Virus record (IMG/VR): IMGVR_UViG_3300043446_004515
Span: 1-52,248 of that record
DNA: 52,248 nt
From: a virus
Reading direction: 5' to 3' (one strand)
Within the stretch, counting starts at the first letter, position 1. Every line of letters begins with the position of its first letter. Below the pieces are notes generated by a model that saw only the letters and a program-made list of their open reading frames with translations, had not been told where the DNA came from and did not search any database. A program made the translations under genes and the position numbers. Positions 14,400 through 51,602 of this stretch are shown here, one piece after another.

Positions 14400-14405
14400 A
14401 ATAAA

Positions 14406-14441
14406 TTTAACCCTCTTAGGTCTATCTTAAAGAGGGTTAAA
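14406..14441. repeat. 36-bp inverted repeat upstream of the tail-tip operon (type C)
   Basis: TTTAACCCTCTT and AAGAGGGTTAAA form perfect 12-bp arms around 12 bp. The total length is the same 36 bp as the inverted repeats of the six 128-bp cassettes and the arms resemble type B (GTTAACCC), but no TTGACA promoter lies at the expected distance. On the minus strand it falls immediately before the start of the tail-tip gene, and its distal arm holds GAGGG, so an RNA hairpin would hide the ribosome-binding site. Confidence 0.7.
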
Positions 14442-14457
14442 ATGCCAAAATTATTGA

Positions 14458-14841
14458 TTAATTGGTGTAAACAGTTTTCACGGTCAATGGGTCTAACTCT
14501 ACGTTAATCCATTGCTGTTGATATTTTTTGATGTCATCATCATTTAATCCAAATTCAATAGCATCAGTGTATGGCGGAGAACCTGTTACGCTACGCAAAT
14601 AAGCAACTTCAAACATTGCCCATTCAGACGATAAAGCCTCAACATAACAAGCATCTTTCTTGAAGTTATCAGGCAAGCTTAGTTCGATGACGACTAGCTC
14701 AATCGGTTCTAAATTGCCAGCTAATTCAACTGCTTTCTCTACTAAGGGATGATAGCAATTGCTAATGCCAGTCATTGCTTTTACTGCCTTTGCATAGTCC
14801 TTTGCCGATTGTTTTTGAAGTATTGATTTATGGTCTAGCAT
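14458..14841 (-). CDS. hypothetical acidic protein
   Basis: The 127-residue product is acidic and mostly helical with no recognised motif. A hairpin (CCCGC tctatattg GGCGGG, about 14850-14873) lies directly upstream with GGGG next to the start; the same hairpin occurs as a terminator elsewhere in the window. It stands alone between the antirepressor-like gene and the tail-tip operon. Confidence 0.6.
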   Translation of the reverse strand: MLDHKSILQKQSAKDYAKAVKAMTGISNCYHPLVEKAVELAGNLEPIELVVIELSLPDNFKKDACYVEALSSEWAMFEVAYLRSVTGSPPYTDAIEFGLNDDDIKKYQQQWINVELDPLTVKTVYTN

Positions 14842-18994: not shown

Positions 18995-19966
18995 TTAATT
19001 TAAAACCGCTTCGATGATTTTTTGCATCATGAGCGGGGGAACGGCATTACCGATCATTTTGGTGTCTAATTTTAGATCGCCACTAAATTGATACCAATCA
19101 GGAATAGTTTGCCAACGGGCTAAGCATTGAGTATTAGCTTCGTAGGGTTGACCATCAATAACAATTGTGGCTTGTTTAGGAGATACCCTTACTTTGCCTG
19201 ACATCGCCTTGATCGTGAACATCGGCTGATGTGCAAAACGGATTGTGTTGTTTGGGATGCCGTCTTTTTTCCTGGATCCGCTTCGTTGATTGACAAAATC
19301 CCCCATCCATTTCAGAAGCGTTGTGTGAACGGCGCCAGCGCCCTTGTGGTAATTGATGATCGACTCTTTTTGCCAATTGGTTAATGTTGTTAGTTTGAGA
19401 GTGGGGATTAGATCGGCGATCGCCTCATACCAGTTAATAGGCTTTTGGTTTTTCCATTCAATATTATACAGTCCTTGTATTTTTCCCCAATGCTTTGAGG
19501 CGACTAAAAATAATCGTTTACGTGATTGTGGTACGCCATAATCAGAGCAGTCAAGCAAGGACTGTCCAACATAATAATCATTGTTTTTTAAGCAACGTTT
19601 AATGTTGGCAAGCGATTTGAAACTGGCATATCCTGCCACATTTTCCAGGCTAAAATAATCAGGTTTTAGCGTTTCAATCGCCCGACAAATAGCATTAGCC
19701 AATTCAATGTCTTCTGAGGTTTCTTTACCATTCTTAGCCCGTGATGCGTTGATACATGGCGGGGAAGCATGGAGCCAGTCGGGGCTATTAAGAGTTTGCC
19801 AATACAATGACTTAACATCAATCGTGTAAGTGTGATGTTCAAAATTATTGCAGGCAATCTCAGCAATATTATCGTCAATCTCAACGCCCCAGATGGGTGT
19901 TAACCCTGCTTGCATAGCGCCTATATCCGCGCCGCCCATGCCTGTAAAAAGACTAGCAAATTTCAT
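18995..19966 (-). CDS. DNA (cytosine-5) methyltransferase 1
   Basis: The 323-residue enzyme has the ordered C5-methyltransferase motifs: I, ASLFTGMGGADIG at residues 3-15; IV, ASPPCINAS with the catalytic cysteine near 70; VI, LENVAG near 101; VIII, QSRKRLFLVA near 150; X, MIGNAVPPLM near the C-terminus. It transfers methyl from S-adenosylmethionine to cytosine. No cognate endonuclease is next to it, so it is probably a protective orphan enzyme. Its start overlaps the upstream stop by one base (TAATG). The target sequence cannot be told from the protein. Confidence 0.9.
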   Translation of the reverse strand: MKFASLFTGMGGADIGAMQAGLTPIWGVEIDDNIAEIACNNFEHHTYTIDVKSLYWQTLNSPDWLHASPPCINASRAKNGKETSEDIELANAICRAIETLKPDYFSLENVAGYASFKSLANIKRCLKNNDYYVGQSLLDCSDYGVPQSRKRLFLVASKHWGKIQGLYNIEWKNQKPINWYEAIADLIPTLKLTTLTNWQKESIINYHKGAGAVHTTLLKWMGDFVNQRSGSRKKDGIPNNTIRFAHQPMFTIKAMSGKVRVSPKQATIVIDGQPYEANTQCLARWQTIPDWYQFSGDLKLDTKMIGNAVPPLMMQKIIEAVLN

Positions 19967-20313
19967 TAGTTAGATTCCTCAAATTGACTGATTAATTGTT
20001 TAATTTGTTTCAACTGTTCAAGGCTTAATTGACGAGAGCGAGAATGATAAAGGCTAAAATAGTCATCAAATTCATGAATTAGGTTAGTCCTTTGAAACTC
20101 ATCCAAGTATTCTTGCTGAGTTTTGTAAATCTTGATTAATGGGGTATAGTCCCCAGCATCTTCAAGCATTGTTTCTTTATAGAATCGAGCGCGAAAGACA
20201 TCTAAGTAAAAATACTTTCTGCCTATCCGTGTTACTGTGGCGAATCCTGTTTCTTTTTTATTCCATTTTTTTACCCAAAAAACAGTGTCGCCAACTTTCA
20301 AATCAAACATCAC
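19966..20313 (-). CDS. small beta-barrel-like protein, paralogue of 18364-18710
   Basis: The 115-residue product opens with LKVGDTVFWVKKW, ATVTRIGRKYFYLDV and RFYKETM, a strand pattern like an SH3- or Tudor-type small barrel, followed by a helical C-terminus ending in LSLEQLKQIKQLISQ. It overlaps the helicase stop by 4 bases and the methyltransferase start by 1 base. Function unknown; possibly a nucleic-acid-binding accessory. Confidence 0.65.
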   Translation of the reverse strand: MMFDLKVGDTVFWVKKWNKKETGFATVTRIGRKYFYLDVFRARFYKETMLEDAGDYTPLIKIYKTQQEYLDEFQRTNLIHEFDDYFSLYHSRSRQLSLEQLKQIKQLISQFEESN

Positions 20314-21851
20314 ATAACCTCTAGTATTTGTTGGGGTGGATAACAGCCAAATTCAGCTTTGAATTCTTTGTTTATCCAGCTATAATCTTTATCTTTTTTG
20401 ATGGCGATCGCCTCAAGATATGCTAAGTAAGCCAACATAGATTTTTCGTTGCGTTCACCATTGAATACCGCGCCTAATGACCATTGAGCGCTGGGCCATT
20501 GGTTAGGGTGAAGTTCTTTGAATTTAGCCATAGCATAACCGGGGGCGATCCCTTTTTTGAATGCTTCTTTTTTCCATTCCCGATACAGTTGACCGGACAA
20601 TGGGAAATCACATTCAACAGTTCGTAACTCAACTAAATTACTTTCCTGTTTAACTTTTTCTCTTAGTGGATATTCATGTCCACATTCAGGACAGGTCATA
20701 TCAAAAGTGCGGTGTAGGTGTCCACATTCAGGGCATTCTTTAACCGGCGGGTCGCCTTTTTCTCCCTGTTTAGCTTGAATTAAAGCAAAATCAGAGGGAG
20801 TTAAATCTTCAATAAAACCGTGGCGCTCAATGTTGCCAGCTTGGTCTAAAACTAAACACTCTGTTTTACCCTCAGATAACCGCAATCCCCGTCCTAATTG
20901 CTGAACGTAAATGGCTTTTGATTTGGTGGGACGGGCTAGGATGACACACTCAATATTAGGTACATCAAACCCTTCCGAGAGTGCATTACAACACGTTAGC
21001 ACTGTCAATTTCCCGCTCTTTAAATTAGCATATAACGGTTCACGAATCTTAACGGGGCACATATCCCCACTGACATAATTAGCCGCTACACCTGCATTTT
21101 CAAAGGCTTTTGCCATGTGCTTAGCATGGGCAACGTCAACGCAAAAGACGATAGTGGTTAACCCATTAGCTAATCGTTGCCATTCACTGACCGCCTTGTT
21201 AACAATGCCCTCGTCATTACAAAGTACCGAAAGGTCATCTAAAGCAAATTCACCTGCAACGGTTTTGACTCCGTTCAAATCAGCGCCGCTTAGCCCAAAA
21301 CATCGGGGTCTAACTAAAAACCCCATCTCTATTAATTGAGACGGTACAGGGGCTAAAACTAGAGCGTTAAATAAATCTCCCATTTCTTCACGTTTAGACA
21401 ATCGCCACGGGGTAGCAGTTAACCCAATGGTAATTTTATGATGGTTGTTTTGAATCATTGACCGTCCACTTTTACGCCATGCGGTCAGGTGTGCTTCATC
21501 ATAAACCGCAACATCATCAACCAATGTCAGGGCAGATTTACGACGCTCTAAAGTTTGCATCGAAACTACTTGGCAGGGGTTGTCAGAATCACAATCCATC
21601 CCGCCAGAAACTGCACTGGATTTGATGCCGTATTTCTCAAATCGGGCTATAGTCTGACGGACTAAATTATCTCGATGAACCATGAATGCAACACGGCGAT
21701 CGCGGCTAAGAATATCCGCAACCATTGACGCCGCAACTTCCGTTTTACCACTGCCCGTACTGGCGCAAAGTAGTATTTTATTTTGACCATCACGGATATG
21801 GTCGTAAACCTGACGCTTTACGTCTAATTGGTAATCTCTGAGTTTGAGCAT
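20310..21851 (-). CDS. SF2 DNA helicase with C-terminal zinc ribbon
   Basis: From the ATG at 21851, which has an excellent AAGGAGAAG site, the protein has 513 residues; a 19-residue upstream extension is rejected. It shows the Q-like LRDYQ, Walker A ASTGSGKT near residue 33, DEAH near 118, GLTATPWR near 150, and QQLGRGLRLSEGK (motif VI) near 320, then a CPECGH...CPECGH zinc ribbon near 370. This is the plan of phage SF2 helicases related to UvsW and type I/III restriction translocases, acting in fork remodelling or recombination-dependent replication. It lies downstream of the SSB-like gene. Confidence 0.85.
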   Translation of the reverse strand: MLKLRDYQLDVKRQVYDHIRDGQNKILLCASTGSGKTEVAASMVADILSRDRRVAFMVHRDNLVRQTIARFEKYGIKSSAVSGGMDCDSDNPCQVVSMQTLERRKSALTLVDDVAVYDEAHLTAWRKSGRSMIQNNHHKITIGLTATPWRLSKREEMGDLFNALVLAPVPSQLIEMGFLVRPRCFGLSGADLNGVKTVAGEFALDDLSVLCNDEGIVNKAVSEWQRLANGLTTIVFCVDVAHAKHMAKAFENAGVAANYVSGDMCPVKIREPLYANLKSGKLTVLTCCNALSEGFDVPNIECVILARPTKSKAIYVQQLGRGLRLSEGKTECLVLDQAGNIERHGFIEDLTPSDFALIQAKQGEKGDPPVKECPECGHLHRTFDMTCPECGHEYPLREKVKQESNLVELRTVECDFPLSGQLYREWKKEAFKKGIAPGYAMAKFKELHPNQWPSAQWSLGAVFNGERNEKSMLAYLAYLEAIAIKKDKDYSWINKEFKAEFGCYPPQQILEVM

Positions 21852-21936
21852 ACTTCTCCTTTTGGCGTTTGCCACTGCCACGACTAGCCATGATGGGGAC
21901 AGTAACAAACGCTTATTTAATTGCTAGATGTTTGAT

Positions 21937-23588: not shown

Positions 23589-25901
23589 ATGAACTATCAA
23601 GATTTTTTGTCCAATAAGCTGTCTAAAGTTACGCCGTCTGGGTTTGATATTGCCCTTAATGACCTTCCTGATTGTCTTTTTGATTATCAAAAATTTGTAG
23701 TGCAGTTAGCATTGCAAAAGGGTAAGTTTGCCATATTTGCCGGGACAGGTTTAGGAAAGTCTCTCATGCAATTAGTTTGGGCGTTAGAAGTTAATCGTCA
23801 CACTAACCGCCCCGTTCTGATTCTTGCTCCCTTAGCAGTAGCTAAACAAACGGCAGGGGATGAGTGTACAAAGTGGGGGATTAACGCCCAATACTGCGAG
23901 TCTCAAGCCGACGTAATCAATGGCATCAACATCACCAATTATGAGAAGTTAGGCAAGTTTAGTCCTGATACTTTTGCTGGTATTGTATTGGATGAAAGTT
24001 CAATCCTTAAGGGATTTAACGGCAAAATGCGGAGTCAATTAATTGAGGCTTTTGAATATACTCCTTATAAGTTGGCTTGCACTGCTACCCCTAGCCCTAA
24101 TGACTACATTGAATTAGGGAACCATTGCGAGTTTTTAAACGTGATGAGCCGTGATGAGATGTTAGCGACGTTTTTTGTTCACGATGGCAAAGTGTCGTTA
24201 ACTGATGAGATTTGGAAACTCAAAAATCACGGCAAAATTAAATTTTGGGAATGGCTTGCATCATGGTCTGTTATGTTTCAGAAACCTAGTCATTTAGGTT
24301 TTAGTGATGATAATTACCAACTCCCTAAACTCATTGAGCATGAGCTAACAATTGAGTCTGGTATTGTACGGGAAGGTGAACTGTTCACCATGGAGGCACG
24401 GGGATTAATTGAGCAACGCCATGCTAAACGCTCAACTATTGACGACCGTGTTAAAGCTGCCGCCGATTTGATTAATGCTAGTGATGAACAGTGGCTTGTC
24501 TGGTGCGATCTTAACGATGAATCCGCCGCCCTAGCCGCCGCTATTAACGATTGTGTTGAGGTTAAAGGGTCTGATAAAGACTCCCATAAAGAGAACGCCG
24601 CCATTGACTTTGCACATGGCAAAATCAAAGTCTTAGTTTCAAAAGCTTCTATTTTTGGATTTGGGCTAAACTTTCAATCTTGCCACAATATGCTATTTGT
24701 CGGGCTTTCTAATTCTTTTGAGTTAACCTATCAAGCCGTCCGGCGGTGCTACAGGTTTGGGCAAACTCAAGATGTAAATGTCTATTATGTAGCCGTTGAC
24801 ATTGAGGGAGCCGTCCTTAAAAATATTCAGAAAAAACATCGTAAGTTTGAAGAAATGCAAGCTAACATTGCCAGTCATTTCTTATCTGCCTATCACGCCA
24901 TCACTGCTAAAAAAGACTACGATCCTACTAAAGCCATGACTAGCCCTATTCTCGAAGTTAAAGACGGTTTATGCCTTGACCAAAAACATGGGCAAAACTA
25001 TTCTAGTTTCCAAGGTGATTGTGTTGAATTGATTAAAGCCGTCCCTGATGACAGTATCGGTTACTCTATTTTTAGCCCACCTTTTGCGAATCTTTTTACT
25101 TATTCCGATTCTCTTCACGATATGGGGAATGTTACCAGTGACGACCAATTTACGGAGCATTACAAATTCCTTTTGAGTGAACTTTATCGCGTTATGATGC
25201 CCGGTCGGCTGGTATCCGTTCACTGCCAAGATTTAATTGCCACTAAGACTAAAGACGGCTTTATTGGCATTAAAGACTTCTCTGGTTTAATGATTCAGTT
25301 AATGCAAGAATTAGGGTTTGTTTATCACAGTCGCGTCACTATCTGGAAAGATCCGGTTTGTCAAATGCAACGACTCAAACCCATTGGTTTACTTCACAAA
25401 CAAGTAGAAAAAGACTCAAGTTTAAGCCGTCAAGGATTACCTGATTACCTGGTAACATTCCGCAAGCCAGGAGAAAATACAGAGCCAATCGAAGGGCGTT
25501 TAGTTGAGTTTTACGGGGAAGATTTGCCTCCTATCAGCAATGATCCTAAATGGCATTCTATTAACGTGTGGCAGCGGTACGCTAGCCCTGTATGGATGGA
25601 TATTGTCCAAAATGATACTTTAAACTTTCGTGAGGCTAAGGAAGATGATGATCATAAGCATATTTGTCCCTTACAATTGACGGTTATCCGTCGGGCTTTG
25701 CAGCTATGGTCTAACCATGGCGATGTTGTTTTGAGTCCCTTTGCTGGTATTGGTTCGGAGGGTTATGTCAGCTTAGATATGGATCGCAAGTTTGTAGGCT
25801 TTGAGCTTAAAAAATCTTACTGGGATTGCCAAGTTAAAAACCTAGAATATATCGAAAACAAACCTAAACAACTTGCATTGTCAGATTTGATTGCCGTCTA
25901 A
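23589..25901 (+). CDS. SNF2-type helicase fused to N6/N4 DNA methyltransferase
   Basis: The 770-residue protein has an N-terminal SF2/SNF2 ATPase: DYQ near residue 33, AGTGLGKS at 51-58, LDESS at 134-138, ATPSPND near 168, and YQAVRRCYRFGQTQDV near 395 (motif VI of the SNF2 group). The C-terminal part is a beta-class amino-methyltransferase with SPPF (motif IV, about 496) before LSPFAGIGSEGY (motif I, about 715). A translocating motor joined to a methyltransferase could methylate incoming or replicating DNA processively, or act against host restriction. No endonuclease domain is visible. The start has AAGG and an AAGCAAACC leader. Confidence 0.85.
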   Translation: MNYQDFLSNKLSKVTPSGFDIALNDLPDCLFDYQKFVVQLALQKGKFAIFAGTGLGKSLMQLVWALEVNRHTNRPVLILAPLAVAKQTAGDECTKWGINAQYCESQADVINGINITNYEKLGKFSPDTFAGIVLDESSILKGFNGKMRSQLIEAFEYTPYKLACTATPSPNDYIELGNHCEFLNVMSRDEMLATFFVHDGKVSLTDEIWKLKNHGKIKFWEWLASWSVMFQKPSHLGFSDDNYQLPKLIEHELTIESGIVREGELFTMEARGLIEQRHAKRSTIDDRVKAAADLINASDEQWLVWCDLNDESAALAAAINDCVEVKGSDKDSHKENAAIDFAHGKIKVLVSKASIFGFGLNFQSCHNMLFVGLSNSFELTYQAVRRCYRFGQTQDVNVYYVAVDIEGAVLKNIQKKHRKFEEMQANIASHFLSAYHAITAKKDYDPTKAMTSPILEVKDGLCLDQKHGQNYSSFQGDCVELIKAVPDDSIGYSIFSPPFANLFTYSDSLHDMGNVTSDDQFTEHYKFLLSELYRVMMPGRLVSVHCQDLIATKTKDGFIGIKDFSGLMIQLMQELGFVYHSRVTIWKDPVCQMQRLKPIGLLHKQVEKDSSLSRQGLPDYLVTFRKPGENTEPIEGRLVEFYGEDLPPISNDPKWHSINVWQRYASPVWMDIVQNDTLNFREAKEDDDHKHICPLQLTVIRRALQLWSNHGDVVLSPFAGIGSEGYVSLDMDRKFVGFELKKSYWDCQVKNLEYIENKPKQLALSDLIAV

Positions 25902-25982: not shown

Positions 25983-26174
25983 ATGTTTGTCCCTACAACA
26001 AAAGCCCTTAACGAATTAAATCTAAATATTAGTCGTCAACACCTATACCACCTAATTAAAAGTGGTGAGTTAGAAAATGGTAAACATTATATTGACGTTC
26101 GGAGTCCTAATAGTAAAAGACCCACCTATCGGGTCTGTGTATCGGAATTGCAAAACTATTTTGAGGTTCGATAA
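25983..26174 (+). CDS. excisionase/MerR-like small HTH protein
   Basis: The 63-residue protein (NISRQHLYHLIKSGELENGKHY, then YRVCVSELQNYF) has the winged-HTH pattern of excisionase-type DNA-binding proteins, which bend DNA during prophage excision. The integrase is 3 kb away, so it might instead be a local regulator. Its stop overlaps the next start (TAATG). Confidence 0.6.
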   Translation: MFVPTTKALNELNLNISRQHLYHLIKSGELENGKHYIDVRSPNSKRPTYRVCVSELQNYFEVR

Positions 26175-26431
26175 TGTTTTCAGTTTTAGAGCACAAAACT
26201 AACGGGGAGCGGTCTTTGGTGTTGTGGGATTGCCAATTTATTAGAGGCGAAACGGCACTACATTGTGGGTTAGTTTGGATTGATAAATCCTGTAATTATA
26301 GTCGCGTCCAATTAATACCCAGGATGGCGACTAGTCCGATTATTATCATTGACTTCCCCTCTGCATTAAGGGGGTTAGCCACAACTCAGGTCATCCCTGA
26401 CGTGATTTTTAGAATAGAATCGATAAATTAA
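26174..26431 (+). CDS. hypothetical protein coupled to the excisionase-like gene
   Basis: The 85-residue product is hydrophobic in its second half (PIIIIDFPSALRGLATTQVIP) with two cysteines and no recognised family. Translation is coupled to the upstream HTH gene through overlapping stop and start codons. Confidence 0.55.
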   Translation: MFSVLEHKTNGERSLVLWDCQFIRGETALHCGLVWIDKSCNYSRVQLIPRMATSPIIIIDFPSALRGLATTQVIPDVIFRIESIN

Positions 26432-26444: not shown

Positions 26445-27164
26445 ATGACCGCTTGCACCCTACAGCCTGTAGAACAAATTGATAGCACGTTAATTAACTG
26501 GTTAAAAAGTCGGTTAGCTAACAAAAAAATTCCTTTTGCACTGTTTAACTTTAGTGATACCCCTGATTGGTCAGATTGTGAAACCGTTGAAGTGGCAGGA
26601 TTACAGATTCCTAAATTAGGAGAGTTAACCACTATTGAGCGGATTGTATTAGATAACGTAGCTGACAATCAGATTGAATCTTCCACGCGGTTACAATTAA
26701 CATTGCGACAATTAGCAAAAGCCCTGGCTACCTATTGGGATGTTATTTGCGAGCAAATCGACTTTAACACGCCGGAAGAAAAGAACGCGGTTAAAACACT
26801 AAAAGCACTTAAACCCGTGCAATTGTCTGGTTATATTTTCCCTGCGGATAGTGTCGAATATCGTTTAGTTAGTGCCACAGTTGCGTACCAAGAATTTCAG
26901 TCCGAGCATTTAGAAGAAATTACCCAAGCGCTCAATATTGCTATTGAGATGCAAGATGGCAGTTTTTCTAATCTAATGCGGATTGCATTTTTTCTTGCCA
27001 GTCGGTTAGGTTCTGCATGGTTAAATCCCGTCAAATTACAACGGCTTACTGAATCTAAAGCACAGGCATTACTTGATTTCGTTGCCCTTGAATCCAACAA
27101 CGGGGAAGACATTCCTGATATTAAAAAAGCGGATGGTGACGCCAAAGAAACCGAGGGAAAGTAA
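26445..27164 (+). CDS. tail assembly chaperone, 0-frame (G-like) product
   Basis: The 239-residue protein is acidic and helical and ends AKETEGK followed by TAA. The last codons GAG GGA AAG contain G GGA AAG (27155-27161), the same slippery heptamer as in lambda gene G. A long open frame without its own start continues in the -1 phase to 27550. This arrangement is the hallmark of tail-tube assembly chaperones of long-tailed phages, which coat the tape measure before tube polymerisation. The sequence itself is not one I recognise, so the call rests on the frameshift architecture. Confidence 0.8.
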   Translation: MTACTLQPVEQIDSTLINWLKSRLANKKIPFALFNFSDTPDWSDCETVEVAGLQIPKLGELTTIERIVLDNVADNQIESSTRLQLTLRQLAKALATYWDVICEQIDFNTPEEKNAVKTLKALKPVQLSGYIFPADSVEYRLVSATVAYQEFQSEHLEEITQALNIAIEMQDGSFSNLMRIAFFLASRLGSAWLNPVKLQRLTESKAQALLDFVALESNNGEDIPDIKKADGDAKETEGK

Positions 27165-27550
27165 ACCCATACCAGGGCTATTGTGAGGAGTATTGGGAGA
27201 TTGCCCAGGCGTTTTCTCAGGATCCTCGTTTTAGCCCTGGTAGGTATGGACACCAGCCGCGATGGTTAATCAGGCAAGCGCTAAACTCAATTTGCGATCG
27301 CCGCAATTTAGAGCAACAAAGTACAGTTAGATTAACCTATACTGTCATGGGGATGTTTGGGAAGCCTAAAATCGAAGTTGACGATCTATTCCCTCACCCC
27401 CTGCATTGGCGGATTAAGACTAGCGGTAAGCGCCTGCCCATTACCAAACGGACTGCCCAAATAGTATTGGCGACCCTCAACGATTACCCGGAAACCAAAC
27501 CGGCATTGTCAAAAATTATGATCGACCTACAAGCGGCAATTATCACTTAA
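27161..27550 (+). CDS. tail assembly chaperone -1 frameshift extension (GT-like)
   Basis: From the slippery site the -1 frame reads 129 codons, beginning VNPYQGYCEEYWEIAQAF, with no start codon until an ATG at 27347. With the upstream part it gives a 368-residue G-T fusion. The aromatic, acidic opening and a later basic segment (RIKTSGKRLPITKRTAQ) differ from the 0-frame protein, as the T domain does in lambda. An independent start at 27347 would leave 62 conserved-looking codons unexplained. No tape-measure gene follows, which is unusual. Confidence 0.75.
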   Translation, partial: VNPYQGYCEEYWEIAQAFSQDPRFSPGRYGHQPRWLIRQALNSICDRRNLEQQSTVRLTYTVMGMFGKPKIEVDDLFPHPLHWRIKTSGKRLPITKRTAQIVLATLNDYPETKPALSKIMIDLQAAIIT

Positions 27551-27555: not shown

Positions 27556-27780
27556 ATGCAAACAGACATTACTTTGTTAACCAAAGCATTAGGCAATCAA
27601 GTTCGATACACCAAAATTGTTATCAACGGTGTTGAGGTTGCTTGCGACAATGTAGACATTTACGATAAAGACGGGATCTTCAACGTTTCTGTTTCACTTT
27701 ATCCATCATCGTTAATCGTATTACCTGAATCAGAGGTGAACGCAGCTACGCATTTACTAAATCAAAAGGCTTCTAACTAA
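27556..27780 (+). CDS. hypothetical protein
   Basis: The 74-residue product is beta-rich (VRYTKIVINGVEVACDNVDIYD, FNVSVSLYP) with no recognised domain. It begins 6 bases after the chaperone extension and overlaps the convergent nuclease gene by 24 bases. Confidence 0.55.
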   Translation: MQTDITLLTKALGNQVRYTKIVINGVEVACDNVDIYDKDGIFNVSVSLYPSSLIVLPESEVNAATHLLNQKASN

Positions 27781-31977: not shown

Positions 31978-32754
31978 CTAGGCAGGCAAGGGCAAACCAG
32001 CCAGCTTACAGGATGCGGCGATCGCCGTCTTAACCGCAGCGGATTCAGCATCGTACAGGGTAGTTTTTAAGTACGGGGGCTGGAAGCTCAGGTTAACCGA
32101 CGGACGACGGATTTCGTTAACGGGGTTAGCGTCACCGTCAATTGTTACTAGTGCAGTCCCAAACGTGTACTCATAGGCGTCGTTAGTGGCGGGTACTGCC
32201 ATGGCAACATTTAACGTGCCGTTGTAGCCGATTTTATTGAGAGCGGCGGGTTGTGCATGATAAAAGAATCCGCGATCACCGGGCTCGATAATCAGGGGAA
32301 TAGAGGGCATAAATGCACGGCTCACCCGTTCCTCTGCGTTTTGTTCACCATAACGGTGGGTTTTCGCGTCCACTTTGCCGACTTCCTCGTTATTGGGTAG
32401 GTCGGTGGTGGGGAGGGTGATCAGACCATAGGTCTTTGCCGTGGCGGCGTCAGCAATTGCGGCTACTGCAGGCTGAATAGCTAGAGTAGTGGCGCCTGTA
32501 CTAATCGATTTCGACTCAGCCGCTACGATAAAATCAGCGCCAAAATACAGATAAGTGCCCTTCTCAATAAAACAAGCGGCGTTAGCTGTTAAAGACGCGG
32601 TAACATCATCTTTAGCAATTGCCGTTTCAACAGAAATCGTGTACTCAGTGGGAGTAGCCGTAGTATTAGCGTGGACTTTAACGAGTGTGCCAACGGTTGA
32701 TACACCTAAGCGCGTATCACCACCTTGGGCAACCAACGAATAATCAACTGGCAT
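31978..32754 (-). CDS. major tail (tube) protein
   Basis: The 258-residue protein is rich in Ala, Thr and Val with an N-terminal TRLGVSTVGTLVKVHANTT region, a central IPLIIEPGDRGFFYH block and a C-terminal acidic helix. Size, composition and position as the last gene of the leftward head-tail operon, after the tail terminator-like gene, point to the tail tube protein. No catalytic motif. Confidence is limited because tube proteins diverge strongly. Confidence 0.6.
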   Translation of the reverse strand: MPVDYSLVAQGGDTRLGVSTVGTLVKVHANTTATPTEYTISVETAIAKDDVTASLTANAACFIEKGTYLYFGADFIVAAESKSISTGATTLAIQPAVAAIADAATAKTYGLITLPTTDLPNNEEVGKVDAKTHRYGEQNAEERVSRAFMPSIPLIIEPGDRGFFYHAQPAALNKIGYNGTLNVAMAVPATNDAYEYTFGTALVTIDGDANPVNEIRRPSVNLSFQPPYLKTTLYDAESAAVKTAIAASCKLAGLPLPA

Positions 32755-38982: not shown

Positions 38983-40027
38983 ATTGTAGCCATTGCTCAA
39001 TAACTGCCTTAGCTACCTCATAGGTCATCTTTGGAGGTACTGACATCCCTATCATGTACTTTCCTATTTTGTCAGTTTTTGCTTGGTAATCGTCAGGGAA
39101 TGAGCCAAGTCGTTTCCATTCTCTAAAAGTTAATTTTCGACACTCGTCCCAATGAGTAAAACTATCACCTGCTTTAAGCGTATTAGCAGGTGAGCAATCG
39201 TCTAATCGAATCTGATTAAACCCTGTACGTTTACCCGTTTCTTTTGTAGTAGCTGTTGCATAGCCTGACCCGTCTCCCTTTTTAGTTTTAGCCCACCACT
39301 TCAAATCTAAGTTATTAGGTTTTGTATCCCTAATTTCATCATCCGTCAAAACCTGTAAATCGCTAGTCGCCTCACCCGCGCTAATCCATCTATGCTTAGG
39401 AGCTAATACCAATTTAGGCTTATCAATATCATCTCTTAAAGCAATAAAAAATACCCGTTCTCTTTTTTGGGGAACCCCACAATCGGCGGCGTTAACCAAG
39501 AATAATTGACAACGATACCCAATCTCTTTAAATCGTGCCATAACCATCTTAACGTAGCCTTTAGCATTACCTTGTATCATGCCTTTAACGTTTTCAGCTA
39601 TGGCAACTTTAGGTTTTAAATGCTCAACTAAATCAAGGTAATCAAAGAATAGGTCATCTAAAACTTGCTTTGCTTGACCTTCCCTAAAATGTTTTTTCTT
39701 GCCCCATGCTTTCTCTCTACTCCCTGCCATTGAAAAAGTAGAGCATGGGGGACTGCCATCTAAAATATCAAGGTTAAACAATTCTTGCGGCAATTCTTTA
39801 GTTAACAAATCTTTAATAGGGCAAAGAAAATAATACTTAGGATTATGGTTCAGCTTGTAATGATAAGCCATTTCAGGGTCAATATCATTAGCACCAATGA
39901 CATCGCAACCAGCTAGTTTATAGCCCATCGTTGAGCCACCACCACAGGCAAATGTAGAAAATACTTTGAGTCCGTTTTTAGGAACAGACTTCAAGTCTTT
40001 TAAAAACCAAGCGTGAGGATTAGTCAT
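38981..40027 (-). CDS. DNA (cytosine-5) methyltransferase 2
   Basis: From the ATG at 40027 the protein has 348 residues. It contains VFSTFACGGGSTMGY (motif I), LDGSPPCSTFS (IV, catalytic Cys), AENVKGM (VI), QKRERVFFIA (VIII) and KYMIGMSVPPKM (X). It is not closely similar to the enzyme at 18995-19966, so the two were probably gained separately and may recognise different sites. It overlaps the ParB-like gene by 8 bases, so the two are translationally coupled and likely work together. Confidence 0.9.
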   Translation of the reverse strand: MTNPHAWFLKDLKSVPKNGLKVFSTFACGGGSTMGYKLAGCDVIGANDIDPEMAYHYKLNHNPKYYFLCPIKDLLTKELPQELFNLDILDGSPPCSTFSMAGSREKAWGKKKHFREGQAKQVLDDLFFDYLDLVEHLKPKVAIAENVKGMIQGNAKGYVKMVMARFKEIGYRCQLFLVNAADCGVPQKRERVFFIALRDDIDKPKLVLAPKHRWISAGEATSDLQVLTDDEIRDTKPNNLDLKWWAKTKKGDGSGYATATTKETGKRTGFNQIRLDDCSPANTLKAGDSFTHWDECRKLTFREWKRLGSFPDDYQAKTDKIGKYMIGMSVPPKMTYEVAKAVIEQWLQ

Positions 40028-40553
40028 TAAATTCAAAACCGCATTTAGGGCAAGTGTGATCAAACTCGTAACTGTCAGGGTCTATTTCTTGCGTGTTACC
40101 TTCATTCTCATCCCCATCCATATCATCTAATCCCCCCATATCATCCCCATCAATCGCCCCCATCAACCGCTCTAACTCACTATCATCAAACCCCAAATCA
40201 TCCAGGTCGTAGCCACCCATATCAAGGGCTTCTAATTCCTGAGCTAAAAGCACCATATCCCAGTCAGTCTCAGCCAGCTTATTATCAGCGATTCTAGCTG
40301 CTTTAACCTGTTGGGGGGTCAAGTCATCACGGACAATAACCGGCACAGTTTTAAGCCCCATTTGCAAAGCTGCTAACCGTCGCCCATGACCCTTAATAAT
40401 GACCATGTTTTTATCAACCACAATTGGCTGATCGAACCCCTCAGCTATTTGTTTAACCAGTAGGTCAATCTGCTTTTGGGGATGACTCTTGGCATTGTTA
40501 GCGTAAGGCTTAATGTCGTCAATCGGAACGGTCTTAATCTGGTGATAATCCAT
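40020..40553 (-). CDS. ParB/Srx-type protein with C-terminal zinc ribbon
   Basis: The 177-residue protein has the ParB N-terminal fold: IDDIKPYANNAKSHPQKQI, GFDQPIVVDKNMVIIKGHGRRLAALQMG, TVPVIVRDDLTPQQVKAARIADNK. GHGRR is the nucleotide-binding loop. A long acidic linker with repeated GDDMGG leads to CPKCGF. ParB-like proteins encoded next to phage methyltransferases are common and may help target the enzyme to DNA or act as nucleases. Coupled to the C5-methyltransferase. Confidence 0.8.
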   Translation of the reverse strand: MDYHQIKTVPIDDIKPYANNAKSHPQKQIDLLVKQIAEGFDQPIVVDKNMVIIKGHGRRLAALQMGLKTVPVIVRDDLTPQQVKAARIADNKLAETDWDMVLLAQELEALDMGGYDLDDLGFDDSELERLMGAIDGDDMGGLDDMDGDENEGNTQEIDPDSYEFDHTCPKCGFEFND

Positions 40554-40596
40554 TGATTACTATACCGATAATGTTGTTGCTTTTTCTATATTAATC

Positions 40597-40797
40597 ATGG
40601 CTAATTCATTGCAAAAGTGTCCGGTTTGTGGCGTGTTGATTGAGGACGATGCAAAGGTGATTTTTAGTTACGGGAAACCGGGAACCCGTTCGCGTCTTTA
40701 TGCCCGTGTCTGTCAGTTTGCCAAAGATAAAGCAAATTGCATTAATCAGGATGATTCTAAGATAGGTGACATCCTAGAAACTGACTATTACGACTAA
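40597..40797 (+). CDS. small zinc-finger-like protein upstream of thyX
   Basis: The 66-residue product has KCPVCGVLI at the N-terminus and further cysteines in RVCQFAKDKANC, a plausible treble or ribbon zinc site. Its stop overlaps the thyX start (TAATG), so it is translated with thyX. Function unknown; only 43 bp separate it from the divergent ParB-like gene. Confidence 0.65.
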   Translation: MANSLQKCPVCGVLIEDDAKVIFSYGKPGTRSRLYARVCQFAKDKANCINQDDSKIGDILETDYYD

Positions 40798-41525
40798 TGG
40801 ACAATCAAAATAAAGTGGTGTTGCTTGGGTTTTATGGTGGTGATAAAACCCATTGTTTATCGGCTTGGCAATCAACTAATCTTGATTTTGAATATACTCA
40901 AGACATTAATTCTCGCATTCAAGTATTATTTGCTAACACTACTAAAAATAAGAAGAAAAGCCCCGCTGATTTGCTTAAGATGTTAGCAGACTATAATCAT
41001 CATACACCTTTCGAGAAAAGCACTCTACACTTTCAAATTACAGGCGATATTGCTAGTCATATTCACTGCTTAAAACATCGCATTGGCGTTTCGATTAATG
41101 CCGAATCAGCACGGTATAAAGAGTTAATTGATAAATGGTATATTCCCAATGACTGGGATATACCAGTTGACGATGTAACACATTTTGCAAGAATGTCGAT
41201 TTTTGAAAATGCTGAGCGATGGGACTATGTACTGTCTCAGTATGTTGAGTTGGGGCATGAGCTTTACCATGAGGCAATTCAACAGTTAACGCCACATTTA
41301 GGGCGTAAACGTGCCAAAGAGTCAGCTCGGTATTTTCTGACCTACGCTAAACAAATTGACCATGACATGATGTTTAATTTTCGGAGCTTCGTTCACTTCC
41401 AACAGTTACGCAACAGTGACGACGCCCAAAAGGAAATACGGGAAATTGCACAGTTAATGCTCGATCAGGTTAAGGCGATCCCAGGCAATCCTTTTGAATA
41501 TTCACTAGCCGCATTCAACCTCTAG
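40797..41525 (+). CDS. thyX: flavin-dependent thymidylate synthase
   Basis: The 242-residue protein carries the ThyX signature as KHRIGVSINAESARY (consensus RHRxxSxNxxSxRY) near residue 93, with PFEKSTLHFQITGD before it and an R-N-F-R-S-F-V-like NFRSFVHFQQLRN near the C-terminus. It makes dTMP from dUMP with FAD and NADPH. Together with dCTP deaminase it gives the phage its own route to thymidine nucleotides. The first residue of the usual RHR motif is Lys, otherwise the active site looks intact. Confidence 0.9.
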   Translation: MDNQNKVVLLGFYGGDKTHCLSAWQSTNLDFEYTQDINSRIQVLFANTTKNKKKSPADLLKMLADYNHHTPFEKSTLHFQITGDIASHIHCLKHRIGVSINAESARYKELIDKWYIPNDWDIPVDDVTHFARMSIFENAERWDYVLSQYVELGHELYHEAIQQLTPHLGRKRAKESARYFLTYAKQIDHDMMFNFRSFVHFQQLRNSDDAQKEIREIAQLMLDQVKAIPGNPFEYSLAAFNL

Positions 41526-41762
41526 TCGCTTGCGGCGGTGTTCCCACAATGCCAACGGTGCCTTGATGCCGGGCCAACCATCACACGACCGAAACCGATT
41601 AATAACGCGACTCACAACGTCCTCCCTAGCCCGCCAGTCGAGTCGTTCATGCAATAGGTCATCCGCATAGGCATCTTCAATTAGACGGGCAAACTCGCTT
41701 AGGTTAACAGGCGATAATCTAACCCGTGGGTAATCGGTCAAAACTCGATAGGACTTGATCAT
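41505..41762 (-). CDS. hypothetical basic protein
   Basis: From the ATG at 41762, preceded by GGAGGG, the protein has 85 residues; a frame starting five codons earlier begins within that Shine-Dalgarno site. It is rich in Arg and Leu (DWRAREDVVSRVINRFRSC) with a single WPGIKAPLALWEHRR tail. No family recognised. The TAGGAT promoter divergent from the next cassette likely drives it; it overlaps thyX convergently by 21 bases. Confidence 0.6.
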   Translation of the reverse strand: MIKSYRVLTDYPRVRLSPVNLSEFARLIEDAYADDLLHERLDWRAREDVVSRVINRFRSCDGWPGIKAPLALWEHRRKRLEVECG

Positions 41763-41798
41763 GGCTTTTCCCTCCATACCACTATCCTAAAACTGACT

Positions 41799-41926
41799 GT
41801 TTCACCCTCTATAAATTCCTTAAGAGGGTGAAACACCCTGGAACCTAGACAGGGTAAGGGTTTCAGAGTTTTAGGGCGTTTGGTATTTTAGGGATGTTGA
41901 CAGTAAGGTGGTTGATTGTGTAGAAT
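41799..41926 (+). promoter_or_regulatory. 128-bp regulatory cassette (type A) at 41.8 kb
   Basis: Inverted repeat GTTTCACC/GGTGAAAC (41799-41834), 62 bp containing CCTAGACAGGGTAAGG and two TTTTAGGG blocks, TTGACA (41897-41902), 18 bp and TAGAAT (41921-41926). Leader AGCAAACAACAGAGG before the ATG at 41959. On the left side GTGAAAC is followed after 9 bp by TAGGATAGTGG, a divergent promoter for the gene at 41505-41762. Confidence 0.9.
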
Positions 41927-41958
41927 TGGGGTTATAGCAAACAACAGAGGTTTTTCAA

Positions 41959-42219
41959 ATGGCTTTATATGCTTTAGTCTCAGGCAATCAAGTTATGTAT
42001 TCCGACGGAACGAAAGTGACCGTCAAACCTAAAAAACAATCTCCACGCAAAAAAGCTATCAAGGTCGGATCAACTGTAATGGTTAATTTTGATTCCGAAT
42101 GTATTGCTGTTACTACTGCAAAACGTCCAGATGGCTGGTTTGAATTTGAAATTATTCAAGGAAAAGACAAAAACAAAAAAAGTGCGTGTCACAAAAAGCT
42201 TTTAACGTTAATTGACTAA
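41959..42219 (+). CDS. small basic protein
   Basis: The 86-residue protein is lysine-rich (TVKPKKQSPRKKAIKVG; GKDKNKKSACHKK) with a barrel-like strand pattern (STVMVNFDSECIAVTT). It could bind nucleic acid. Single gene after a complete cassette promoter, overlapping the convergent portal gene by 4 bases. Confidence 0.6.
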   Translation: MALYALVSGNQVMYSDGTKVTVKPKKQSPRKKAIKVGSTVMVNFDSECIAVTTAKRPDGWFEFEIIQGKDKNKKSACHKKLLTLID

Positions 42220-43745
42220 TTCTCTAAGTCTTCCCCCGCTTCAAGTAGCCGCAAAATCGACTCATAATCAGAGTCACTAAGGGGCAAGTCATAACTACTG
42301 CCAATTCGAGATAGTTTATCGGAGTCCTCTAACGTAGTGGACTCTGTTTCTGCCATATCCTGTCCATCTTGACTATTTTGAGCATCGTCCTCTGGCTCAT
42401 TAGTCTCACCCATAGCCGCTTCAATTTCTGCCATATCGTCCTCATCTAGTGTGATGTTTACCCCGAACTGACTACCACCGAACCGGGATTCTAGGATGGT
42501 TTCCGCCGGTAGTCCCAAAGCCGCGTACTTCTCATCAGCCTCAGCATAGATTTTATACTCATCCGCACGATCACGGTCAGATTTAACCAGGATAGATGGA
42601 TAGGCGATTTCATACGCTAGGCGATCGCCAGTAATGCTAGGCATAATCAAATCGGTTAACCGACATAGGTAGGGCGTAATGATATCGCTCTGGTAGTTAC
42701 CGACCATTTCTGCCCATTGCTCATGATCGGATTTCCCCGACTCACTCATTGCCCCCTGTTTAGTCGAACCTAACAACCGACTACGGGTAATGCGACTACA
42801 TGCCACAAACATATCAATTACTAAGTTAACTAGGCTATCAATACCACTGAAGGAACGGTTGATAAACCCCGCATCTTCCCTGGCGGCGTCCAAAACCATG
42901 AGATTAATTGACGACAAACCGACTTTAAAAAGCTCTAATCTGGTTTGGATATCTTTCTGTTTACCCTGTAGCACCATATCGGCTAGACCATCCATCTTGT
43001 ACCAGAAACCCGATGCTGATTGTAGATAATTAGACGCGGCTTTACTGGTTAACGTCATGTCGCTAAAACTGTCAATTAACACCTCAATGACAGACCGATC
43101 TTTAAAATCATTGCGGTATAGCATCTCCCCTGTCAGTTCAACACCATAGAATCGTAATACTCTATCAGGATGAATCTCAGGTACATAGCTAAAGTAGCCA
43201 GGTTTGAGGTCATCCATCATAGCGGTGTAGTGGGGGTCTTTGCCGTAGTAGCCGCGATTATAACTAATCCTATCCCGTCCAAAGATAGCGCCGCTTCTGA
43301 CCCCCTTGACGCTCTCTAAATCGACGGGCTCACTCAATTCTTTACCGTCGTCAATGTCTAAAACGATATGACAGTTCCCTTCAACATTGGCAATGATTAG
43401 CGCTTTTTTAATAGCATTTAGCCCATAGTGTTTAAAGCCGGCAATATCATAAAATACAATCTCATCTAATCGTTGCTTAATCTCCGTTCCCAGATCTGTA
43501 TCTTCTTCAAACTGCCATTCAGGGCATTGTCGCAAACTATCGACGGGGTAAGCCGTGCAAGCCGTGTTAATCAGGGGATTTATGAATAATTCGTAAGCCT
43601 CATCTAGGGTTAGTCTAGGTTGGTAATTGACTGCAATGTTATTGGCTAAGCCTAGTCCATTAACGGTGTTGCTAACAGCACTAATCGCCCTCCCAAATAC
43701 CCCATTGGCATCATTTAACCAGCTAACATGAAATGTATCAGTCAT
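42216..43745 (-). CDS. portal protein (DUF1073-like)
   Basis: The 509-residue protein matches the DUF1073 portal group: RLTLDEAYELFINPLINTACTAYPVD near the N-terminus, GNCHIVLDIDDG, HPDRVLRFYG and a helical SGIDSLVNLVIDMFVACSRITRSRLLG stem region. The C-terminal 80 residues are acidic and may contact the head interior or scaffold. The portal is the DNA entry vertex. It is encoded divergently from terminase and 5 kb from the capsid operon, an unusual arrangement. Confidence 0.8.
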   Translation of the reverse strand: MTDTFHVSWLNDANGVFGRAISAVSNTVNGLGLANNIAVNYQPRLTLDEAYELFINPLINTACTAYPVDSLRQCPEWQFEEDTDLGTEIKQRLDEIVFYDIAGFKHYGLNAIKKALIIANVEGNCHIVLDIDDGKELSEPVDLESVKGVRSGAIFGRDRISYNRGYYGKDPHYTAMMDDLKPGYFSYVPEIHPDRVLRFYGVELTGEMLYRNDFKDRSVIEVLIDSFSDMTLTSKAASNYLQSASGFWYKMDGLADMVLQGKQKDIQTRLELFKVGLSSINLMVLDAAREDAGFINRSFSGIDSLVNLVIDMFVACSRITRSRLLGSTKQGAMSESGKSDHEQWAEMVGNYQSDIITPYLCRLTDLIMPSITGDRLAYEIAYPSILVKSDRDRADEYKIYAEADEKYAALGLPAETILESRFGGSQFGVNITLDEDDMAEIEAAMGETNEPEDDAQNSQDGQDMAETESTTLEDSDKLSRIGSSYDLPLSDSDYESILRLLEAGEDLEN

Positions 43746-43779
43746 ACTATTAAAATAATCTTAATAGTATTATTTTAAA

Positions 43780-44133
43780 ATGTCTAAACACTCTACTAAT
43801 GATGACAATAAACATATTCAGTTAGAGATTGTCCCAACTGGTCAAACTGAGTTAGATTTTAACTTGGCTGAAATTACTCGCAAACACTACAAGATACAAT
43901 CGTCGATTGTCGGTAAACTTTACAAGCAAGTCGATAAACACGCCGCGTCTGATTTGACTGTAGCGGAAGCAAAGCAGGTAGCGGATACAATTAGAAATTT
44001 ATCTATATGGGCTTCCAACTTCCACGAAAAGTTAACAATTGTACAGCAGAATGAGGCTGAAAAGATTATTGCGTTAGGCGGTGCAATTGACTATGAAAAT
44101 TTAACCCAGGAGCAAAAAGAACAATGGTTGTAA
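43780..44133 (+). CDS. putative small terminase subunit
   Basis: The 117-residue acidic/helical protein lies directly before the large terminase gene, overlapping it by 10 bases. It shows TRKHYKIQSSIVGKLYKQVDKHAASDLTVAEAKQVADT but no confident HTH. Assignment as TerS is by position and size. Confidence 0.55.
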   Translation: MSKHSTNDDNKHIQLEIVPTGQTELDFNLAEITRKHYKIQSSIVGKLYKQVDKHAASDLTVAEAKQVADTIRNLSIWASNFHEKLTIVQQNEAEKIIALGGAIDYENLTQEQKEQWL

Positions 44134-45704
44134 AGTCAATAGAATCAAGGATGGAAGATAGAAGACGGGTTAGATGGTATGGACATAATGTATTGGATGC
44201 CAGAAAGTTGCAGTTGGATACAATGAAAAATGATACTGTCTGGTTTATTAATAATTATGGTTACACAATCGACCCTAGAGATGCTCACAATCCGTTAAAG
44301 CCTTTTCTTTTATTTCCTATCCAAGAAGACTTGGTAAGGTTTTTTGAAACTAATTACTACGATGGCAATTGGGCTATTTTAGAAAAATCTAGAGACGTTG
44401 GGGCGACTTGGATTTTATCGGCGGTACTGGTAAAACATTGGTTGTTTACCCCAAACTTTAAGGGCGCAGTAGGTAGCAGAAAATCAACGCTAGTCGATAA
44501 AGCAGGCGATCCTGACTGTATTTTTGAAAAGATTAGATTGTTTATTAAGAATTTACCGGACTGGTTACAACCTAATGGGTGGGAAAACAAACCATCAAAA
44601 ACAATGCTAATCTATAATCCTGACAACGGCGCAACTATAACCGGTGAGGGCGGATCGGAAATAGGGAGGGGCGGACGTACTGGTTTGTACTTCTTAGATG
44701 AAAGTGCATTTATTGAGCAGTCTCAAAAAGTGATGTCTGCCTTGTCAGCTAACACTAATTGTTTAATTCAAGTATCAACGCCTAACGGGTTAGACAATGC
44801 CTTTTACCGATATGTCAGTGAGGGGAAGATTCCTAAGTTTAGAATTCACTGGAAAGATGACCCCCGTAAAAATCATTGGATTACTCCCGGCGGTGTAACC
44901 GGTAAAGGCTGGGATGCCCCTAAAGATGCTATTTATCCTTGGTATGAGCAAAAGTGTAAAGAGATTGGCGATCCGGTTATTATCGCTCAAGAATTAGACC
45001 TTGATTATTCTGCTTCTGTTGAGGGGATCTATATCCCTGCTAAATGGGTGATGACCTGTATTAATGCTCATCTAAGATACCCTGGCATCATTGACGCTGA
45101 TCAGCCTATCTGTGCGGGTCTAGACGTTGCGGCGGGCGGTGCTAACCAGTCAGTTCTAATCATCCGTCAACAGGGATTGGTAGCGCCTAAAATCTACCGT
45201 TGGGACAACCTTGATCCAACTCAGGTATCTTTTGTCGTTGACGATCTATTGCGGCGTTTAGGGGTTGAATATCTATGTTTTGATGCCGATGGTGTGGGGG
45301 CGGGGGTCGGCAGCACGTTACGGTCAATTGCTGATAAATCCTACGTTATAACCCCATTCAATGGTGCGGGAAGTCCCGACGACTATACACTTTGGCAAGG
45401 GGAAAATAAAACTAGTAAGCAAAAGTTTGCTAACCGACGGGCGGAGGCTTGGGGGATACTACGGGAACGAATTAGAAAAACCTACGAAATGAGTGAGGGG
45501 ATTAACACCTATCCTGAAGATGAACTAATCTCAATTCCCAATGACCCTAACTTAATTATCGAGCTTAGTAAATTGACAATTCGGTACAATAGTAGTGGCA
45601 AAATTCTACTACAACCTAAGAATGAATTGAATCGGTCGCCTGATACTGCTGACGCTTTAGTTTATTCGTTTGTTAAGCCGAGGGGTTTGGCTTGGTGGAC
45701 ATGA
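44124..45704 (+). CDS. terL: terminase large subunit
   Basis: The 526-residue protein has the packaging ATPase motifs: a deviant Walker A in EKSRDVGATWILSA near residue 90, Walker B with catalytic Glu in LYFLDESAF near 193, the coupling motif in IQVSTPNG near 214, and the RNase H-like nuclease with Asp residues in CAGLDVAAGG near 330, CFDADGVGAG near 390 and SPDTADALVYSF near the C-terminus. It cuts and pumps DNA into the head through the portal. Complete in length. The packaging type (cos or pac) cannot be told from the protein alone. Confidence 0.9.
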   Translation: MVVKSIESRMEDRRRVRWYGHNVLDARKLQLDTMKNDTVWFINNYGYTIDPRDAHNPLKPFLLFPIQEDLVRFFETNYYDGNWAILEKSRDVGATWILSAVLVKHWLFTPNFKGAVGSRKSTLVDKAGDPDCIFEKIRLFIKNLPDWLQPNGWENKPSKTMLIYNPDNGATITGEGGSEIGRGGRTGLYFLDESAFIEQSQKVMSALSANTNCLIQVSTPNGLDNAFYRYVSEGKIPKFRIHWKDDPRKNHWITPGGVTGKGWDAPKDAIYPWYEQKCKEIGDPVIIAQELDLDYSASVEGIYIPAKWVMTCINAHLRYPGIIDADQPICAGLDVAAGGANQSVLIIRQQGLVAPKIYRWDNLDPTQVSFVVDDLLRRLGVEYLCFDADGVGAGVGSTLRSIADKSYVITPFNGAGSPDDYTLWQGENKTSKQKFANRRAEAWGILRERIRKTYEMSEGINTYPEDELISIPNDPNLIIELSKLTIRYNSSGKILLQPKNELNRSPDTADALVYSFVKPRGLAWWT

Positions 45705-45705
45705 G

Positions 45706-45735
45706 AATCCCCTCACTTTTTAGGGTGAAGGGATT
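45706..45735 (+). terminator. terminator after terL
   Basis: AATCCCCTCAC, a short loop, GGTGAAGGGATT and GGGTTTTG form a stable hairpin just past the terL stop, in front of the convergent cassette at 45.7-49.4 kb. Confidence 0.6.
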
Positions 45736-45750
45736 GGGTTTTGTCTGGTG

Positions 45751-46242
45751 TTAAGCAAAAAGTTGTGTCACTACTTGTTTTTTCGAGTAAAGATAAAATC
45801 CATTTTTAGATCCTCGCTTTAGATATTTTAGGTATGGATGACCAGACAGTTTAGGATTGCTTACAGCAGACGAATAAAATACGTTAACTAGCTGAGATTG
45901 AAAGTTGTGGGTCTTTGTCATCCACTCAATTTCGGGAATTCGCTTCATCCAATTGGTAAAGTCAATTGGACGAAATTCTTTGTTTCCGATAAATTCAAAG
46001 AACTTCCGAAAAAAGTCTTTTTCATCTAACTTTGAAACGATGTCAAGATAACTCATACTTTTTGCATCATCGTTATATGAATAGCTTTCCCAGCAATCTG
46101 TGATGTTGATTGGCGTTTCGGCAATGTTAGACTCCTTTGCTTTTAACTCATTGATAACATCTTGTAATGCTTCAATGTCTTTGTGGTTTACAGCATCAGC
46201 AGCAGCATTCCATAAAGCGTTGATTACGTAATTGTTAGCCAC
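45751..46242 (-). CDS. hypothetical protein, last gene of the HNH-helicase cassette
   Basis: The protein has 163 residues and a GTG start with AAAGGAAAC and a GCAAACAAC leader. It has a helical N-terminal half (LWNAAADAVNHKDIEALQDV) and a C-terminal region (NVFYSSAVSNPKLSGHPYLK, FYLYSKKQVV) that could be a winged-helix DNA-binding domain. I do not recognise a family. It follows the HTH gene by 27 bases and so belongs to the same leftward unit. Confidence 0.65.
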   Translation of the reverse strand: MANNYVINALWNAAADAVNHKDIEALQDVINELKAKESNIAETPINITDCWESYSYNDDAKSMSYLDIVSKLDEKDFFRKFFEFIGNKEFRPIDFTNWMKRIPEIEWMTKTHNFQSQLVNVFYSSAVSNPKLSGHPYLKYLKRGSKNGFYLYSKKQVVTQLFA

Positions 46243-46269
46243 GGTAGTTTCCTTTGTTGTTTGCGTTAA

Positions 46270-49120: not shown

Positions 49121-49367
49121 AATTAGATTTCCTTAAATTACATTCGGGACAGCTTGGAACTCCATTGTGTAGCGTAGTAGTTCCGCCCTTTGAATAAGGA
49201 ATCACGTGGTCTATATGGCAAGTAGCGTCAACTTTTTTGCCGCAATAAGCACAGCGCCATTGGTGCTTGATTAACAGCATAGTTTTTTCAGACTTACTAA
49301 AACAACGTCTCAACCTAGAGAGCGGAAAAATTTCCGACTGACAAAGTGTCCTTCTGCATAAGCACAT
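49098..49367 (-). CDS. HNH endonuclease
   Basis: The core MLLIKHQWRCAYCGKKVDA, CHIDHVIPYSKGG, HNGVPSCPECNLRKSN carries the HNH nuclease motif with its two zinc CxxC pairs. The catalytic His is in HIDHV and the Asn in HNG. The first 29 residues (from 49367) look unlike a protein start domain, so translation may begin at the ATG at 49280; neither start has a strong ribosome-binding site. It overlaps the helicase start by 23 bases, so the two are coupled. Possible homing-type or defence nuclease guided by the helicase. Confidence 0.75.
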   Translation of the reverse strand: MCLCRRTLCQSEIFPLSRLRRCFSKSEKTMLLIKHQWRCAYCGKKVDATCHIDHVIPYSKGGTTTLHNGVPSCPECNLRKSNYVFDPND

Positions 49368-49445
49368 AAGCTATATTAACAACGCTCCAAATAAAATGAC
49401 AACCAATAATGTCAGATATTTGCAGCCAATTTCAGTAAGCTTCAA

Positions 49446-49664
49446 TCATTTGCCATCCCTGAGCCGCTGATAAAATTTGCCTTTGCGGTCATGGGAGAAA
49501 GTGGAGGGGAACCGTAGGTAAAGGGCGATCGCCTCCCTAATCAATTCCGACCGACTCATATCCTTTTGCCAACATCGCTCATTCAATGCTTGGATAATGC
49601 CATCGTCTAGGGACACTGAAACTGGTTTTTTGGGATGGTCGGGCGTTAGTTTGGCTCTAGGCAT
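49446..49664 (-). CDS. ribbon-helix-helix (CopG/MetJ-type) regulator
   Basis: The 72-residue protein has the RHH pattern: a strand KPVSVSLDDGIIQALNERC followed by helices SRSELIREAIALYLRF. Such small dimers bind operator DNA. It is a single leftward gene between the HNH cassette and the ASCH-like gene. No toxin or relaxase partner is adjacent, so an orphan repressor, possibly of the inverted-repeat operators, is one option. Confidence 0.8.
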   Translation of the reverse strand: MPRAKLTPDHPKKPVSVSLDDGIIQALNERCWQKDMSRSELIREAIALYLRFPSTFSHDRKGKFYQRLRDGK

Positions 49665-49713
49665 AGGACGGGTGATTGATTGGGCTACAGATATTTTATT
49701 AATCTATGCCAAC

Positions 49714-49734: not shown

Positions 49735-49763
49735 AGTTTCGTGCTCACCATTATGCGTTACGG

Positions 49764-51589: not shown

Positions 51590-51602
51590 GCGATGTCGTG
51601 GG

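Follow-up and report, generated by a model that had tools for sequence, protein, structure and literature searches.

The locus described here raises two questions: does a slippery heptamer at the very end of a gene without recognisable sequence direct programmed -1 ribosomal frameshifting, and, if so, are the two products a tail assembly chaperone pair of the phage lambda G/GT type? The window, by which we mean the whole stretch of viral DNA analysed (52,248 nt, IMG/VR record IMGVR_UViG_3300043446_004515), contains a plus-strand gene (26445..27164) that starts with the ATG at 26445 and, after 239 codons, stops at the TAA at 27162-27164. The C-terminal end of its 239-aa protein is an acidic and lysine-rich linker, ESNNGEDIPDIKKADGDAKETEGK. 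The heptamer G_GGA_AAG (27155..27161, plus strand) is in the frame of the ATG and abuts the TAA. From here the -1 frame is open for 129 codons plus stop (27161..27550, plus strand), but the first ATG, GTG or TTG appears only after 62 codons, at 27347. Joining the two frames at the heptamer gives a predicted fusion of 368 aa. Apart from the linker, this had been pointed out in an initial annotation made from the sequence, and we could reproduce it, including the identity of GGGAAAG with the lambda G/T heptamer. As also foreseen there, a start-based ORF finder calls a spurious 67-aa ORF (27347..27550, plus strand) inside the -1 extension. The further claim that the heptamer identifies the tail assembly chaperone is not demonstrated; GGGAAAG by itself is not enough to tell what the protein is.

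The gene belongs to a phage of which we have two pieces. The window and the contig IMGVR_UViG_3300046804_005087 (66,812 b) are linear parts of one circular genome of about 77.3 kb, the circle being deduced from these two contigs: contig positions 1-13189 correspond to window positions 39060-52248 and contig positions 38229-66812 to window positions 1-28584, and some 25 kb (contig 13190-38228) are present in the contig only. Since the phage encodes terminase, portal, protease, major capsid protein and tail proteins as well as a tape measure protein of 3761 aa (L008:6606-17891, minus strand, outside the window, with PHROG tape measure matches), it is tailed and probably long-tailed. At about 0.15 nm per residue, a tape measure of this size corresponds to a tail of roughly 560 nm. 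The window has 28 copies of GCGATCGC, where 0.4 would be expected, and because such an excess is a signature of cyanobacterial DNA, we regard the phage as a probable virus of cyanobacteria; a terminase profile search of genome contigs found no host genome. Other recognisable genes encode an RNA polymerase sigma factor (1217-1945, minus strand), a DNA polymerase processivity factor (2392-3516), the thymidylate synthase ThyX (40797-41525), a ribonucleotide reductase-like protein (L007:18608-19636) and a 770-aa fusion of a helicase and an N6/N4 DNA methyltransferase (23589-25901), which gene comparison did not find in the relative introduced below. Further methyltransferase and helicase genes lie at 18995-19966, 20310-21908 and 47141-49120.

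Profile searches of viral contigs with the gene matched only the second contig of the same phage and one relative, IMGVR_UViG_3300047564_004575 (72,660 b), which has many genes in common with the window phage at 40–90% amino acid identity. Terminase and capsid led to a third relative (sample 3300048597), which is fragmentary and does not include the frameshift gene. No match to the fusion was obtained by tblastn against phages and plasmids, nor to an alignment of the -1 domain in a profile search of genome contigs. The initial annotation had proposed to look in relatives for the heptamer and for stops in the -1 frame. In the single relative available, the orthologue (L003:10001-11106) aligns gap-free with the same 239 and 129 codons; the heptamer directly before the TAA differs in its last base alone (GGGAAAC), and the -1 frame is open for exactly 129 codons. 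In both phages, the 0 frame thus carries a heptamer of the form X_XXY_YYZ ahead of its stop. The two sequences are 71% identical in nucleotides at the gene and 74% identical in amino acids over the fusion, with 75% over the 0-frame part (L003:10001-10720, dN/dS about 0.09) and 71–72% over the extension.

Protein-level constraint on the 62 start-less codons is strong. Between window and relative they show a dN of 0.16 and a dS of 2.4 (dN/dS about 0.07), and the other two frames have stops at 5 and 9 codon positions across this stretch. Together with the stops in the alternative frames, this makes it most likely that the stretch is translated in the -1 frame. Conservation of the -1 protein begins at the second codon past the slip (NPY), so that -1 coding appears to run unbroken from the slip site itself, and in both phages the slip is the only visible entry into it. 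Judged from the same conservation, the 67-aa ORF is a piece of the -1 extension and no separate gene, because conservation extends beyond its ATG, back to the slip site. Such a layout is not due to chance, since a comparison of 149 ORFs (all those of at least 100 aa in the window phage and the relative) singles out this gene and its orthologue. The -1 frame stays open for at least 100 codons beyond the stop in 28 of the 149, and 26 of these 28 have a start upstream in the -1 frame or within 32 codons, like ordinary overlapping genes. The two exceptions that lack a nearby start are the frameshift gene and its orthologue. No other slippery site with comparable properties was common to the two phages.

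Downstream of the heptamer we noticed a putative stimulatory stem-loop (27170..27242, plus strand), a feature absent from the initial annotation. It has an outer stem (27170-27180 paired with 27232-27242) and an inner stem (27184-27200 paired with 27213-27228), and in the window its first paired base lies 8 nt past the heptamer, within the 5–9 nt at which stimulators are usually found downstream of the shift site (PMC5009743). The 101 nt after the heptamer fold with a minimum free energy of -46.5 kcal/mol (z -5.65, none of 200 shuffles as low), and the same region in the relative reaches -21.1 kcal/mol (z -2.86). With 80-nt windows, z is -6.7 at the site in the window phage and -4.7 in the relative, and no window elsewhere along the gene falls below -2.9. 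Genome-wide, the site ranks fifth of 2610 windows by z and has the lowest energy among the 40 top-ranked ones. Two other 80-nt stretches, 46641-46720 and 14401-14480 (plus strand), fold about as unusually (z -5.8 and -5.2).

The relative retains the inner stem: both bases differ in two pairs (27187/27225, GC to UA, and 27203/27210, GC to AU), and in several further pairs a single base differs. Most of the outer stem is not retained, and the stem there begins further from the heptamer. This covariation is thin because a single relative was found. When the region was recoded synonymously, 0–1 of 1000 recodings folded as well as the window sequence (101 and 80 nt), or 71 of 1000 for the inner stem alone; the corresponding values for the relative were 7–8 of 1000 (80 and 52 nt) and 82 of 1000 (full 101 nt). 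Rfam gave no match. From these two sequences, we read the stem-loop as a putative, yet real, stimulatory structure. Known g-t shift sites include both G_GGA_AAG and G_GGA_AAC, the two versions seen here (PMC5009743).

With a conserved site, coding constraint, a conserved stem-loop and a unique layout, a programmed -1 ribosomal frameshift of the tandem-slippage type is nearly certain for this gene. Two proteins would be made from one start, the occurrence and the rate of the shift both being part of what we infer. The majority of ribosomes would terminate at the TAA at 27162 and release the 239-aa protein. Pausing at the stem-loop 8 nt further on, a smaller share would slip from GGA-AAG to GGG-AAA and continue into a 368-aa protein with an extra domain of 129 aa, whose junction would read TEGK-VNPYQGY. 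We considered whether the two frames might instead be separate genes, the -1 frame having an atypical start codon of its own or being translated after re-initiation close to the TAA, with the heptamer a coincidence. An SD-like GAGGAG does precede an in-frame ATT (about 27184-27202). However, this stretch is altered in the relative (GATGAG), the -1 protein is conserved from the NPY onwards, and both phages keep the heptamer and the stem-loop together with 62 codons devoid of a standard start, which makes separate genes quite improbable. A frame break is also how a sequencing error or a recently broken gene would appear, as if a one-base error had cut an uninterrupted gene in two. Yet the identical structure is present in another assembly of this phage (99.98% identical), a phage that is 29% different in DNA has the break at the same codon, and purifying selection acts on both halves. 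We therefore rejected an error or a broken gene as refuted by the matching structure of the relative; its residual probability is negligible.

The identity of the product is a harder question, and the neighbourhood of the gene bears on it. Directly upstream lies an 85-aa gene (26174..26431, plus strand, 73% amino acid identity in the relative, no family), preceded by a 63-aa HTH_17/excisionase-like gene (25983..26174, plus strand, 64% identity in the relative), whose Pfam HTH_17 match (E 8e-4) is below the curated cut-off. Directly downstream is a 74-aa orphan gene (27556..27780, plus strand, 53% identity over 55 residues in the relative). Further neighbours in both phages are an integrase and a nuclease gene that, on inspection, looks like VRR-NUC. 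The operon that contains the frameshift gene is headed, at 22892, by a copy of a promoter-like element. This element consists of TTGACAGTAAG..GGTTGATTGTGT followed by a -10-like TAGAAT or TAATAT, and recurs at 22892, 28149, 31588, 37684 and 41897 on the plus strand and at 50463, 15803 and 2080 on the minus strand, plus once in the G001-only part. Six of the window copies and the G001-only copy sit within a repeat of about 140 nt, which also holds an upstream palindrome, TGTTTCACC...GGTGAAACA, or its variant TGTTAACCCC...GGGGTTAACA. The element looks like a phage-wide promoter/operator set; it was not found as such in the relative. The copy at 22892 is not obviously a late promoter, which counts against a chaperone.

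Chaperone genes normally lie between the genes for the major tail or tail tube protein and the tape measure protein, directly upstream of the latter. In the window phage, the tape measure gene is about 27 kb away and on the opposite strand, and the candidate tail tube gene (31978-32754) is not adjacent either. Searches of Pfam, PHROGs, NCBIfam and Phage_TAC_10 did not place the product in any chaperone family, and PDB sequences gave no significant match, in agreement with the earlier statement that the gene has no recognisable sequence. Profiles assembled for lambda G from 8 phages and for lambda T from 9 do not single the gene out (hhalign P 0.3 and 0.055). Because chaperone families are highly divergent, a missing family match is weak evidence. 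AlphaFold models from two-sequence input reached a pLDDT of 38 and 45, values too low for judging whether the protein has a chaperone fold. A match to the baseplate family phrog_2103 (E 0.024), one to 'gp85' (9zd7, E 0.15) and a weak one to a HECT E3 ligase were dismissed as chance. As for the lambda-type G/GT chaperone frameshift originally proposed, its frameshift part is thus borne out by site conservation, start-less coding constraint and the stem-loop, whereas family or profile similarity and a place between major tail protein and tape measure genes do not back up the chaperone part.

Nevertheless, we consider a lambda G/GT-type tail assembly chaperone the best single explanation, plausible and unproven, with a probability of about 0.6; once the frameshift is granted, a chaperone role becomes slightly more probable still. 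The gene has the G/GT layout, a short form and a -1 fusion carrying a second domain, it is the sole gene of that design in the phage, and the prior for phage frameshift genes is high: in SEA-PHAGES genomes, tail chaperones account for 2397 of 2476 joined frameshift genes (PMC10885494). The charged linker before the slip and a tape measure protein expected to need a chaperone point the same way, as does the Microcystis phage Mwe-JY26, whose conventional chaperone is organised alike. We infer a function as a G/GT-type pair, in which the 239-aa protein, as the abundant partner, would coat the tape measure protein over its great length of 3761 aa and the scarcer 368-aa protein would bring in the tail tube protein.

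A genuine -1 frameshift gene might also serve outside the tail, as a DNA-metabolism, early or lysogeny-cassette protein that carries the conserved 129-aa domain on a fraction of its molecules. In both phages the gene does sit in a co-directional cassette with the HTH gene, near the nuclease and the integrase and away from the capsid and tail genes. The promoter-like repeat that heads its operon precedes regulatory genes elsewhere, for example that of the sigma factor, and neither families nor profiles show a similarity to chaperones. However, gene order is scattered throughout the phage, so position is weak evidence; it weighs less than usual here because the genes for the sigma factor and the DNA polymerase processivity factor adjoin the tape measure gene. 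Moreover, no other chaperone candidate of such a design was found, and frameshifts of the extension type are rare in phages outside tail, capsid and transposase genes (see also PMC10885494). A non-tail function is therefore possible, and we rate it as rather unlikely.

The kind of gene is known, and what we describe would be a variant located outside the tail module and lacking recognisable sequence relatives among known families. With it, a phage group in which almost all proteins are of no known kind gains a well-supported frameshift gene, and the annotation can be set right, which from start codons would show an orphan of 239 aa plus a spurious gene of 67 aa. If the product is a tail chaperone, the gene need not adjoin the tape measure gene, and the frameshift signal can find a chaperone where sequence does not. 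If it is not, the gene would be one of the rare instances in which lambda-type recoding serves a purpose outside tail assembly.

Among known systems, gpG/gpGT of phage lambda is a close counterpart. It likewise has GGGAAAG near the end of the 0 frame, a -1 extension of about 130–145 codons, a charged linker ahead of the slip and a predicted stem 7–8 nt past the site. Short look-alikes occur in the first half of the proteins (ELTTIERI and ELSALQRI) and at nearly equal distance after the slip (LTYTVMGMF and LTYTVLSLF). These look-alikes (ELS.LQR, LTYTV) were noticed post hoc, and when tested as homology they were not significant, so that we do not count them as evidence. The lambda system differs in that the homology between the proteins is not significant (the P values given above), lambda has 140 aa before the slip compared with 239 aa in the window gene, the window gene sits elsewhere than in the interval from tail tube to tape measure gene, and its slip abuts the stop codon.

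Another counterpart is the chaperone pair of Mwe-JY26 (PP438418.1, 83396-84186; L026:10956-11746). In this cyanobacterial phage GGGAAAC precedes the stop by one codon, the -1 frame runs for 122 codons, and a stem is predicted 7 nt past the site. Unlike the window gene, to which no sequence similarity was found, the pair directly precedes the tape measure gene. Its frameshift is unannotated: only the last part of the -1 frame is annotated, as a 'pre-tape measure chaperone' from an internal GTG. The g-t genes of the haloviruses HCTV-1 and HCTV-5, with the shift sites G_GGA_AAC and G_GGA_AAG (PMC5009743), belong to archaeal viruses, but in the shift site, the only feature compared, they have the same two versions of the heptamer as the relative and the window phage.
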